In this document: positions 669 through 13,785 of the stretch, in pieces
Layout: each line of letters begins with the position of its first letter
How positions within the stretch are numbered: position 1 is the first letter of the stretch
DNA from: Hyphomicrobiales bacterium
GTDB lineage: Bacteria > Pseudomonadota > Alphaproteobacteria > Rhizobiales > Beijerinckiaceae
Direction: 5' to 3'
Assembly: GCA_026400535.1 (NCBI GenBank)
Contig: JAPLOU010000040.1
Coordinates: forward strand, 1 to 64,000
DNA: 64,000 nt
Made by a program: the position numbers and the translations under genes
Notes under the pieces: generated by a model
Database searches by the model: none
The model's input: only the letters and a program-made list of their open reading frames with translations
What the model was told of the DNA's origin: nothing

Positions 669-1844
669 TCACCGGTCAAGCGACCGGTGCATGAGCCACT
701 CACCCGCGATGCTGGTGGCAGACACGGTGAGCCGCTCGCCCCGCAGCGCGACAAGATCGGCAGCGTATCCTTGCGCGATCCGGCCGCGCTGCCGGTCAAG
801 CCCGAGGAAGCGCGCCGGGGTACCGGACGCCATCACGAGCGCGTCGCCAAGTTCGCATCCCATCATCGTCACCGCGTTGCGGACGGCCTCGATCATGCCC
901 AGATGCGCGCCCGCCAGCGTCCCGTCCGGACCGGTCAGCCTGCCGCCGTCAAGGCGAATGGTGCGACCCTGCAACGCGAAGGTCCGGCTTGCCCCGCCCA
1001 CGGTCGGCATGGCGTCGCTCACCAGCATCAGCCGGTCGCGCCCCATCAGCCTGTATGCCAGCCTCAGATTGAGCGGTGCGACATGCAGCCCGTCGCAGAT
1101 GATTCCGGCCATCAGGCGCTCGTCGCCGAGCGCCATGCCGACCAGCCCGGGCTCGCGCGGCGTGAGCTGCGACATCGCGTTGAACAGGTGGGTGACGCCC
1201 GACAGCCCCGCGCCGATCGCAGCCTCGACCCCGGCCGCAGTCGCCTCCGAATGCCCAGCGCTGAGCACGAGCCCAGCCGCGGCCAGCGCCTTGATCGCCT
1301 CGGGCAGCATCATTTCCGGCGCCAGCGTCACCAGCGAGTGCCCGAGCCTGCCGAACCGTGCGAGCAAGGCCAGATCCGCCGCAGCCGGCCTTCGCATGAA
1401 GGCCGCCGGATGGATGCCCTTGCGGGCAAGATTGAGGAATGGCCCTTCAAGATGAAAGCCCAGCACGCCGGGAACCGATAGCCCCGCCTGGGCCGCGGCC
1501 AGAAGGTCAACCATCTTGCCAGGCGCGTCGGTGATCAATGTGGGCAACAGTCCGGTCGTCCCGAAACAACGGTGCGCCTGCGCGATGCGCGCGATCGTCT
1601 GCTCATCCGGGTTGTCGTTGAGCAGCGCGTCGCCGCCGCCATTGACCTGAATGTCAATGAAGCCCGGGGCAAGCAACGCATCGTCTGGCAGCATCAGGCA
1701 ACCCTCGGGCGCATGGCGGGGCGCAGGCTCCAGCGCCTCGATGCACCCGCCAGCGATGTGAAGCAGGGTCGGCCCGGCCCAGCCCTGCCCGTCGAACAGG
1801 CGGGGCGCGAGCAGCGCGCGCAGCGGAATGGCTTCGGCTTCCAT
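669..1844 (-). CDS. nagA: N-acetylglucosamine-6-phosphate deacetylase
   Basis: Cytoplasmic amidohydrolase that removes acetate from GlcNAc-6-phosphate to give glucosamine-6-phosphate, 391 residues. Visible family marks are IDIQVNGGGDALLND near the start of the barrel, FHLEGPFLN (metal-binding Glu), SAGHSEAT and GVTHLFNAMSQL (metal-binding histidines) and LVSDAMPTVGG (catalytic Asp). The ATG at 1844 precedes MEAEAIPLRALLAPRLFDGQ and has AGG upstream; a longer start is possible but adds Pro/Arg-rich sequence with no homology. It diverges from murA at 2038 with 193 bases between them, where TGGTAT-type sites lie. It is the deacetylation step of the recycling island. Confidence 0.93.
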   Translation of the reverse strand: MEAEAIPLRALLAPRLFDGQGWAGPTLLHIAGGCIEALEPAPRHAPEGCLMLPDDALLAPGFIDIQVNGGGDALLNDNPDEQTIARIAQAHRCFGTTGLLPTLITDAPGKMVDLLAAAQAGLSVPGVLGFHLEGPFLNLARKGIHPAAFMRRPAAADLALLARFGRLGHSLVTLAPEMMLPEAIKALAAAGLVLSAGHSEATAAGVEAAIGAGLSGVTHLFNAMSQLTPREPGLVGMALGDERLMAGIICDGLHVAPLNLRLAYRLMGRDRLMLVSDAMPTVGGASRTFALQGRTIRLDGGRLTGPDGTLAGAHLGMIEAVRNAVTMMGCELGDALVMASGTPARFLGLDRQRGRIAQGYAADLVALRGERLTVSATSIAGEWLMHRSLDR

Positions 1845-1954
1845 GACGCAACCTGATTCGGCAGGCGGCGGGCGCCTGCCATGGGCGGGAACAAACAAAG
1901 GGCAGCGGTCGGGGCGCCCTCACATCGTGCGCTGGCGCCCTGCCGGAGCCGTTC

Positions 1955-1983
1955 TTGACAATACCACTATAAAGCCATTTACA
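1955..1983 (+). promoter_or_regulatory. Candidate promoter for murA operon
   Basis: TTGACA at 1955-1960 is followed after 17 bases by TTTACA at 1978-1983, ending 54 bases before the murA start. The -35 is perfect and the -10 is weak. An ATACCA box overlaps the spacer, where a repressor could block transcription. The call is by eye only. Confidence 0.35.
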
Positions 1984-12050: not shown

Positions 12051-13012
12051 CGGGACCGGTGCCTGTGCTGGCGATCGAGGGACTGTCGCTGCACATGGCG
12101 GGCCTGCCGCTGGTGGCGGATCTCTCGCTGACCATCGCGCCGGGCGAGATGGTCGGCCTCGTGGGCGAGTCCGGATGCGGCAAGAGCGTCACGGCGCTTT
12201 CGATCATGCGCCTGCTGCCGGAGCCGCCGATCCGGATCGCCGGCGGCCATATCCGGTTCAACGGGCAAGATCTCGCCAGCCTGTCCCAATCCGAGATGCG
12301 CAGGCTGCGCGGGCGCGAGATCGGCATGATCTTTCAGGAGCCGATGAGCTCGCTGAACCCTGTCTTCACCGTGGGCGATCAGATTGCGGAGCCGCTGTTG
12401 ATCCACCGCGGGCTCGGGCGCGCTGCAGCCCGGCGCCGCGCTGTCGAACTGCTCGAACTGGTCGGCATCCCCCATCCCGACCGCACCGTGGATCGCTTTC
12501 CGCACCAGTTGTCCGGCGGCCAGCGCCAGCGCGCCATGATCGCCTCGGCCATCGCCTGCGAGCCGAAATTGCTGATCGCGGACGAACCGACGACGGCGCT
12601 CGACGTCACCGTGCAGGCCCAGGTGCTCGACCTGATCAACCGCCTGCGCCGCGAGATGGGCATGGCCTGCCTGCTGATCACCCATGATCTGGGGGTCGTG
12701 GCCGAGGTCTGTGAGCGCGCCCATGTCATGTATGCTGGCCGCATTGTCGAACACGGTGCGGTCAAGGCTCTGTTCGCATCGCCCCGGCACCGCTACACGC
12801 GCGCCCTGCTCGATACGATCCCGGCGCGCAATCAGCCCGGCAGGCGCCTGCCGTCGATCCCCGGCATGGTGCCGCCACCGGGCGCGCGCGGCGATGGCTG
12901 CAGCTTCGCCGAACGGTGTCCTGCTGCCATCGCGCGGTGCCTGACCGAACGTCCGCTGCTGGCTGTCGCGGGACAGGACCCCGCCGCCGCATGCTGGAAC
13001 CCCGCCCCATGA
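12047..13012 (+). CDS. Peptide/muropeptide ABC transporter ATPase (DppD type)
   Basis: ABC ATPase of 321 residues with Walker A GESGCGKSVTALSIM, Q-loop near MIFQEPMSSLNPVF, signature LSGGQRQRAMIA and Walker B LLIADEPTTALDV. The DppD/OppD C-terminal extension, with cysteines in CSFAERCPAAIARC and AACWN, is the oligopeptide transporter C-terminal motif that can bind an Fe-S cluster. The ATG at 12047 overlaps the anmK stop, so it is co-translated with the kinase. It pairs with the ATPase at 13009 and the permeases at 7463-9243. Confidence 0.93.
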   Translation: MTGPVPVLAIEGLSLHMAGLPLVADLSLTIAPGEMVGLVGESGCGKSVTALSIMRLLPEPPIRIAGGHIRFNGQDLASLSQSEMRRLRGREIGMIFQEPMSSLNPVFTVGDQIAEPLLIHRGLGRAAARRRAVELLELVGIPHPDRTVDRFPHQLSGGQRQRAMIASAIACEPKLLIADEPTTALDVTVQAQVLDLINRLRREMGMACLLITHDLGVVAEVCERAHVMYAGRIVEHGAVKALFASPRHRYTRALLDTIPARNQPGRRLPSIPGMVPPPGARGDGCSFAERCPAAIARCLTERPLLAVAGQDPAAACWNPAP

Positions 13013-13785
13013 CGGCGCCGATTCTTGAGGTCGAGGCATTGACGAAGCACTACAGGGATGCCGGCGGCCAGACCGTGCGCGCCGTCAATGGCGTCTCGTT
13101 CACCCTGCAGCGCGGCGAGGTGCTCGGCATTGTCGGTGAATCGGGCTGCGGCAAGACCACTCTCGGACGCATGCTGCTGCGCCTGCTGGAGCCAAGCTCG
13201 GGCCGCATCCTGATCGAGGGTCAGGACCTCGCCGGCCTCGACGGCCAGGCTCTCAGGAGGGCGAGGCGCAACATCCAGATGGTGTTCCAGGACCCGTTCG
13301 GATCGCTCAATCCGCGCCACAGGGTCGGCCACATCCTGGCCGAGCCCCTGATCGTCCACGGCCTGAGGCCCGGACCTGGCGCGCGCACGGCCCGCGTCGC
13401 GGAGCTGCTGGCGATGGTCGGCCTGCCGCCCGACGCCGGCGCGCTATACCCCCACGCGTTCTCGGGCGGCCAGCGCCAGCGCATCGCCATTGCCCGCGCC
13501 CTGGCCCTCGAGCCCGGACTGATCGTGGCCGATGAACCGGTCTCGGCGCTCGATGTCTCGATCCAGTCGCAGATCATCAACCTGATCAGCGATCTGAGGG
13601 AAAGGCTCGGCCTCTCGATGATCTTCATCAGCCATGACCTGTCGGTCATCCGGCATGTCAGCGACAGGATCGCCGCGATGAAGGATGGCGTCTTCGTCGA
13701 ACTTGGCGATGCCGCCGCCATCTTCGGCGATCCCCAGCATGCCTACACAAGGGCACTTCTCGCCGCCGTGCCGAAGACGCCCTGA
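13009..13785 (+). CDS. Peptide/muropeptide ABC transporter ATPase (DppF type)
   Basis: Second ATPase of the importer, 258 residues. It has Walker A GESGCGKTTLGRMLL, Q-loop region MVFQDPFGSLNPRH, signature FSGGQRQRIAIARALAL and Walker B LIVADEPVSALDVSIQSQI. It is shorter than many DppF proteins, ending soon after HAYTRALLAAVPKTP without the oligopeptide C-terminal extension. It overlaps the preceding ATPase by ATGA. This ends the recycling island; the next gene is convergent after 19 bases. Confidence 0.92.
   Translation: MTAPILEVEALTKHYRDAGGQTVRAVNGVSFTLQRGEVLGIVGESGCGKTTLGRMLLRLLEPSSGRILIEGQDLAGLDGQALRRARRNIQMVFQDPFGSLNPRHRVGHILAEPLIVHGLRPGPGARTARVAELLAMVGLPPDAGALYPHAFSGGQRQRIAIARALALEPGLIVADEPVSALDVSIQSQIINLISDLRERLGLSMIFISHDLSVIRHVSDRIAAMKDGVFVELGDAAAIFGDPQHAYTRALLAAVPKTP

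Follow-up and report, generated by a model that had tools for sequence, protein, structure and literature searches.

A Dpp-type ABC importer linked to muramic-acid genes in Alphaproteobacteria: a probable accessory locus for scavenging cell-wall fragments

The reactions catalyzed by AnmK, MurQ, NagA and NagB are well established, AnmK having as its substrate what lytic transglycosylases release. In Escherichia coli the murR-murQ-murP-yfeW locus joins MurQ with a linked uptake system, MurP of the phosphotransferase system (PTS), and murein tripeptide import by MppA-OppBCDF ties an Opp/Dpp-type importer to murein fragments. ATP-binding cassette (ABC) import of peptidoglycan fragments has been proposed for YejBEF-YepA of Agrobacterium (PMC9790009), a case from Alphaproteobacteria without AmpG. 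Two further systems are relevant: a Dpp-type receptor of Haemophilus ducreyi (5za4, 5z99, 5yyb), in which the SBP_bac_5 fold serves sialic acid, an acidic N-acetylated sugar, and the NagQ-regulated N-acetylglucosamine (GlcNAc) loci of Alpha- and Betaproteobacteria, for which PMC5343134 describes a GntR regulator, tandem-repeat sites, and nagA, nagB and kinase genes. Here we analyze a 64,000-nucleotide stretch, hereafter the window, from a Hyphomicrobiales bacterium (GCA_026400535.1, contig JAPLOU010000040.1, called C48 below), in which an island of genes for muramic-acid and amino-sugar metabolism lies together with a Dpp-type ABC importer. We consider it probable that this island is an accessory locus, probably spread horizontally, that scavenges muramic-acid-containing cell-wall fragments through the importer, and the evidence suggests that the importer brings such fragments in beside the known import routes.

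The proposal starts from the company that the receptor of the importer keeps. Among the best 80 loci from a scan for the receptor across genomes, identity drops from 84–52% in 36 orthologue loci (L012–L047) to 35–29% in the next 44, the paralogue loci (L048–L091). An anmK gene lies near 31/36 of the orthologues (23/24 where the fetched locus exceeds 20 kb), compared with 0/44 of the paralogue loci. The other neighbors of the 36 orthologues are a GNAT acetyltransferase (24 loci), gntR (23), murQ (22), a serine hydrolase (21), the BadF-type kinase (20), nagB (18), nagA (17), dppD and dppF (11 each) and murA (9), while the 44 paralogue loci hold dppC (39), dppD (38), dppF (38) and dppB (25) and none of the other neighbors; these counts refer to the fetched DNA only, which is shorter than 20 kb for 12/36 orthologue loci, and to a minimum of 37% identity (GNAT excepted) that drops the divergent BadF kinase beside Microvirga murQ. 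According to record titles the linked loci range from Bosea and Microvirga to Tagaea, Devosia and Rhodobacteraceae, and their gene order differs. In Microvirga the receptor is flanked by murQ, the serine hydrolase and anmK at one end and by nagA-nagB-gntR-kinase at the other; most Bosea type B loci carry an EamA gene between murQ and anmK; and in Devosia, Pelagibacterium and Rhodobacteraceae the receptor is adjoined by dppD-dppF, followed by the serine hydrolase and anmK. Company that is kept while the order is reshuffled points to function, and the tie of the importer to muramic-acid and peptidoglycan-sugar genes is supported. The serine hydrolase (beta-lactamase family PF00144) is found near anmK at L014:5834-6841, L018:7729-8754, L036:6761-7879 and in 18 further loci. 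It is most like PBP4B/YfeW, far below the cut-off, has no evident signal peptide in L014 and L018, and may be a muropeptide amidase or peptidase.

The receptor, whose N-terminus resembles a signal peptide by eye, also stands apart in its phylogeny. In a quick tree with support from the Shimodaira-Hasegawa-like approximate likelihood ratio test (SH-aLRT), which included about one third of the 44 paralogues, its 41 orthologue rows form a clade separate from 28 YejA/YepA-type rows at 100% SH-aLRT; the 28 rows amount to 23 distinct genes, because four locus pairs gave the same gene twice and OWN_yejA equals L120. The receptor is placed with neither YepA nor MppA in the tree, and MppA clusters with OppA. 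Its closest solved structures by sequence are 5u4o, 1uqw (YliB, which we take to be GsiB) and DppA, whereas MppA and OppA are more distant matches. Receptors that bind sialic acid, opines, glutathione or nickel are found among its structural matches, so that acidic sugars are within reach of the family. In DppA, R383 binds the carboxyl group of the dipeptide and D436 the amino group, as given in PMC12136057. The D436 column, which lies near an alignment gap where one-residue register shifts are possible, contains Asp in 0/41 orthologue rows; E. coli DppA, OppA and MppA have the Asp, and GsiB and NikA do not. The missing Asp indicates that the receptor is not a DppA/OppA/MppA-type binder of free-amine peptides, and its loss suits ligands linked to N-acetylmuramic acid (MurNAc) or its anhydro form (anhMurNAc). 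Two cysteines, C333 and C469, are present in 41/41 orthologue rows and uncommon in paralogues, and are possibly a clade-specific disulphide. The family is a broad one: at E ≤ 1e-5 the receptor has 33 matching places in its own genome, its own locus among them. For the 120 closest database proteins listed, the names supplied by the sources are without exception “peptide/nickel” or simply “ABC transporter” substrate-binding protein.

The occurrence of the receptor is patchy. At E ≤ 1e-100 an orthologue is present in 10/37 genomes of the genus, own genome included, and in 0/24 genomes that each represent the order outside this family; since a scan of named records does find orthologues beyond the family, for example in Microvirga, Devosia and Stappia, the latter count shows no more than that it is not universal. 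Bosea possesses two receptor types, 81–83% and 66–67% identical to that of the window, which are not sisters in the tree. We then have 31 receptor-bearing genomes, namely our own and those of 30/36 orthologue loci (L017, L021, L029, L032, L034 and L044 left out), among which YejB is over the cut-off in 31/31, NagZ is matched in 29 (26 over cut-off) and the AmpG family in 22 (17 over cut-off). This patchy occurrence and the overlap with AmpG argue for an accessory scavenging locus rather than a replacement of AmpG. The island adds to AmpG and Yej and replaces neither.

The genome of the window is 3.79 Mb in 100 contigs and is 93.66% complete. It encodes a NagZ over the cut-off (C20:79096-79989) with a weaker match on C59, and its sole Amidase_2 match, on C59, is a 261-aa AmpD-like gene with no evident signal peptide (by eye); the NagZ and the cytoplasmic-type amidase that belong to the AnmK-MurQ route are therefore both found. 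A complete yejABEF operon lies on C22, where YejB is over the cut-off, and a second YejA-family receptor on C81 groups with paralogues of Agrobacterium albertimagni and Rhizobium rosettiformans (99% SH-aLRT). The short flanks fetched for these paralogues contain no yejB, and YepA of A. tumefaciens (Atu1774) is encoded apart from yejABEF (PMC9790009), for which reasons we call the C81 receptor YepA-like. AmpG (TIGR00901) gave 0 matches in the genome at E ≤ 1, with E. coli and Caulobacter matched as controls, and 0 in a further search at 1e-10; given the completeness, the gene may have been missed. The original prediction, made from the window alone, had described a self-contained island whose transporter is a dedicated importer of muropeptides or anhydro-disaccharides. 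With NagZ, an AmpD-type amidase, YejABEF and a YepA-like receptor encoded elsewhere and with a broken deaminase frame, the island is neither self-contained nor the only importer, and the idea that it stands in for AmpG or Yej is not supported. The prediction had itself named a functional ampG or yejABEF elsewhere, together with binding of plain di- or oligopeptides only, as refuting it; of these, the yejABEF genes were found, and no AmpG. What stands is the association of the importer with peptidoglycan-sugar genes, borne out by the linkage to anmK, by the separate receptor clade and by operator-like repeats in relatives.

These repeats were noticed by eye in six loci, where TGGTMT recurs in the same orientation at a spacing of about 11 bp ahead of the receptor gene or murA, and NagQ sites are described as tandem repeats in PMC5343134. 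A repeat score of at least 9.5 in upstream gaps is reached in 29/41 orthologue loci (24/35 of those not pre-inspected) and in 0/44 paralogue loci, and no more than 1/40 shuffles equal the score in 18/41 orthologue loci and 0/44 paralogue loci. A repeat lies within 220 bp upstream of murQ in 18/23 loci, of murA in 7/10 and of nagA in 1/18. The TTGCAATNGGTATT box between receptor and anmK recurs in 7/12 relative loci checked (C46, Alsobacter, Tagaea and Bosea type A loci), whole in the C46 copy and with its right half altered in the window. The repeats are consistent with a putative NagQ-like GntR regulation of the island.

The C46 copy is a natural variant of the island. The region C46:34501-44590 (L009 from 10501 onward, and L010) matches the window from base 1, which is also base 1 of C48, to approximately 15,024 at 81–91% nucleotide identity. 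It is without window bases 1,299–6,594, so that murA, the kinase, murQ and gntR are gone, and decayed remnants of nagA and nagB remain at the junction. Its receptor, permeases, anmK, ATPases and GNAT are free of internal stops, with a ratio of non-synonymous to synonymous substitution rates (dN/dS) of 0.05–0.15 between the copies. The C46 copy comes either from the cell that carries the window or from a sister strain binned with it, and in both cases the importer with anmK is the better-conserved core.

In the scavenging model that we favor, the importer would take up a fragment bearing MurNAc or its anhydro form, either as the free sugar (anhMurNAc or MurNAc), as GlcNAc-anhMurNAc, or as one of these with peptide attached, and it would do so beside AmpG and/or YejBEF, not instead of them. 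NagZ and the amidase encoded elsewhere would trim the fragment in the cytoplasm. AnmK would convert anhMurNAc to MurNAc-6-phosphate, from which MurQ would strip the lactate to leave GlcNAc-6-phosphate, and the BadF-type kinase would bring freed GlcNAc to the same product and perhaps also make MurNAc-6-phosphate. NagA would give glucosamine-6-phosphate (GlcN-6-phosphate), which NagB-II would route to glycolysis, or which would return to uridine diphosphate (UDP)-GlcNAc and the second MurA. A NagQ-like GntR regulator would link the units of the island. While gene content, linkage, receptor clade, the absent Asp and coexistence with other importers are observations, we infer the ligand, the regulation and a use in scavenging as opposed to recycling. 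A bolder sub-reading concerns the conserved GNAT (24/36), which would re-acetylate de-N-acetylated anhMurN before AnmK acts; such a sugar may be left by the chain-end deacetylase of Agrobacterium (PMC10838918). On the wider claim, that the island represents a further class of peptidoglycan-fragment importer beside PTS MurP, AmpG and YejBEF-YepA, a Dpp-type ABC system whose receptor would bind (anhydro)MurNAc or glycosides of it and that spread horizontally among Alphaproteobacteria with AnmK, MurQ and a NagQ-like regulator, our judgement is evenly balanced.

Several observations weigh against scavenging of muramic-acid fragments. The receptor tree carries long-branch warnings. The loss of Asp counters DppA-type binding yet gives no pointer to sugars, as other subfamilies share it and 49/50 paralogue rows are likewise without Asp (2 of these being gaps). 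DppD and DppF are adjacent in just 11/36 orthologue loci, the deaminase is broken in the window assembly, and the serine hydrolase was not found in the own genome in a search run without a positive control. The repeat score was set after inspecting the six loci, closely related Microvirga and Bosea sequences make up many of the rows, and the repeat in the receptor/anmK gap of the window is weak (9.0, reached by 7/40 shuffles). The persistence of importer and anmK on C46 without a linked murQ also fits recycling by another route. Such recycling was the original interpretation, in which a dedicated importer retrieves the cell's own anhydromuropeptides and does the job of AmpG. It could appeal to the genome without an AmpG match, to anmK as the most constant non-transport neighbor of the receptor, an enzyme that uses a lytic transglycosylase product, and to the C46 copy that retains importer and anmK without linked catabolic genes. 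However, YejABEF and a YepA-like receptor are present in the same genome, and YejB in every one of the 31 receptor-bearing genomes examined, with AmpG over the cut-off in 17, leaves no import gap that needs filling; the patchy occurrence within the genus and linked genes that lead to fructose-6-phosphate also speak against it, and we regard dedicated recycling as unlikely.

It could also be argued that the importer takes up plain stem peptides such as L-Ala-D-Glu-meso-diaminopimelate, as MppA-Opp does, next to genes that recycle the sugars. The fold and parts are those of the Dpp/Opp family, the sources name the orthologues “peptide/nickel transport”, solved relatives include the murein-tripeptide receptors MppA (4toz) and, by its title, Bacillus subtilis DppE (8ay0), and the serine hydrolase of 21/36 loci could be a peptidase. 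Against this, the Asp that anchors the amine in DppA, OppA and MppA is absent from every orthologue row, and the other conserved neighbors act on sugars (mpl, ldcA and mpaA were not searched for), which makes a stem-peptide importer rather improbable. Finally, an ordinary peptide, nickel or opine importer might stand beside anmK by chance, as members of so broad a family are many in this genome alone. The linkage count makes this unlikely, since anmK accompanies orthologues and no paralogues across Bosea, Microvirga, Tagaea, Devosia and Rhodobacteraceae with the order reshuffled, and we give chance very little credence. Scavenging of muramic-acid fragments remains the reading we prefer.

The genes of the island run nagA, murA, BadF-type kinase, murQ, GntR/UTRA, NagB-II, GNAT, dppC-dppB-receptor and anmK-dppD-dppF (Table 1). 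The receptor, two permeases and two ATPases are those of the Dpp/Opp (peptide/nickel) ABC importer family. Profile searches recovered all the genes named in the original prediction at about the places given, scoring as the named families, and confirmed that the window has no ampG, nagZ or amidase gene. Its statement that stops and starts mostly overlap holds for seven junctions, with overlaps of 1–4 bases (murA-kinase, murQ-gntR, gntR-nagB, gnat-dppC, dppC-dppB, anmK-dppD and dppD-dppF), but strand and spacing divide the island into several groups rather than a single operon: nagA (−), murA-kinase and murQ-gntR-nagB (+), gnat-dppC-dppB-receptor (−) and anmK-dppD-dppF (+). The broken deaminase frame and the GNAT gene between the deaminase and dppC had gone unremarked.

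Table 1. Features of the island, with positions in the window.
Feature	Position	Strand	Basis or remark
nagA, GlcNAc-6-phosphate deacetylase	669..1844	-	TIGR00221 262 bits, over cut-off
Operator-like direct repeat TGGCTT-N5-TGGTAT, nagA/murA gap	1961..1977	-	Clear site of the window; putative NagQ-type architecture
Second murA, UDP-GlcNAc enolpyruvyl transferase	2041..3300	+	TIGR01072 525 bits, over cut-off
BadF/BcrAD-type amino-sugar kinase	3300..4196	+	PF01869; NagK_SO3507 264 bits, below cut-off 370
Operator-like direct repeat upstream of murQ, weaker	4219..4235	+	Repeat scoring
murQ, MurNAc-6-phosphate etherase	4326..5222	+	NF003915 337 bits, over cut-off
GntR/UTRA regulator	5222..5980	+	PF00392, PF07702
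NagB-II-type GlcN-6-phosphate deaminase, frame broken	5977..7012	+	SIS protein, below NCBIfam cut-off
GNAT acetyltransferase	6996..7466	-	PF13673; in 24/36 orthologue loci
dppC-like permease	7463..8302	-	NCBIfam match below cut-off
dppB-like permease	8299..9243	-	NCBIfam match below cut-off
SBP_bac_5 periplasmic receptor, specificity part	9275..10807	-	Own clade; without the amine-anchoring Asp of DppA
Divergent receptor/anmK promoter region	10808..10940		Holds the only TTGCAATNGGTATT box of the window
anmK, anhydro-MurNAc kinase	10941..12050	+	NF007141 449 bits, over cut-off; PF03702
dppD-like ATPase	12047..13012	+	NCBIfam match below cut-off
dppF-like ATPase	13009..13785	+	NCBIfam match below cut-off

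The linked set for the AnmK-MurQ route is not whole throughout: anmK, murQ and nagA are over their cut-offs, murQ reaches 246 bits against TIGR00274, below the cut-off of that model, and the frame of the linked nagB is broken. The open reading frame (ORF) of nagA reaches 1898, and its start codon is likely the ATG at 1844. In the assembly the deaminase is split over two overlapping ORFs (5977-6561 and 6494-7012), and its halves share one open frame in 23/23 loci that hold both, 21 of them distinct, since the contigs of L030 and L031 appear again as L111 and L112. Other SIS genes exist elsewhere in the genome, one of them within a 629-aa frame that is probably GlmS. The genome contains two copies of murA, on C22 and in the island, and an island-linked MurA is also seen in Bosea type B, Alsobacter, Stappia and Tagaea loci. 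The BadF-type kinase is predicted to be a GlcNAc kinase or a dual MurNAc/GlcNAc kinase, with solved relatives 1zc6, a “probable N-acetylglucosamine kinase” (E 2e-40), and the MurNAc/GlcNAc kinase 8zo3 (E 3e-20). A second, divergent BadF-type kinase, 25–30% identical to that of the window, lies directly beside murQ at L018:5864-6727 and at the same place in other Microvirga loci, and is a candidate MurNAc kinase. For the GNAT no informative relative was found among solved structures (sole match E 0.0038), and a role as an amino-sugar acetyltransferase is possible.

Our literature searches turned up no account of an importer of this type. For mycobacteria, a 2026 preprint speculates on MurNAc uptake by a still-unknown transporter (PMC13041923), which indicates that transporters of this kind are being sought. 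If the scavenging proposal is true, many “peptide/nickel” receptors, out of the 1069 proteins that reach E ≤ 1e-100 in a set of 7,999 scored candidates, could be reannotated as importers of cell-wall sugars. There would then be one more known route for peptidoglycan fragments, and feeding on cell walls would become a testable trait of these Alphaproteobacteria.

In comparison with the known systems, the island is distinguished from MppA-OppBCDF by its linkage mainly to amino-sugar genes, and by a receptor that lacks the Asp retained in MppA and that does not join the cluster of MppA and OppA. From YejBEF-YepA it differs in a receptor on another branch, outside the YejA/YepA clade; in a dppB with 106 bits for the YejB model NF011712, whose cut-off is 445, and 315 bits for Opp2B; in separate DppD and DppF ATPases where YejF is a single fused protein; and in its linkage to genes of the MurQ route. 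The H. ducreyi sialic-acid receptor, which is among the better structural matches of the island receptor, is 24–25% identical to it and serves a different sugar. Relative to the NagQ loci, the island has in addition murQ, anmK and a Dpp-type importer, and the main text of PMC5343134 contains 0 mentions of murQ or anmK. Unlike the E. coli mur locus, it has an ABC importer and not the MurP PTS, a linked AnmK, and a GntR/UTRA regulator in place of MurR; the relatives share with that locus a serine hydrolase, distantly like YfeW, beside anmK or murQ. By analogy, the closest system in its working would be E. coli murQ-murP-yfeW, with an ABC importer taking the place of the PTS.

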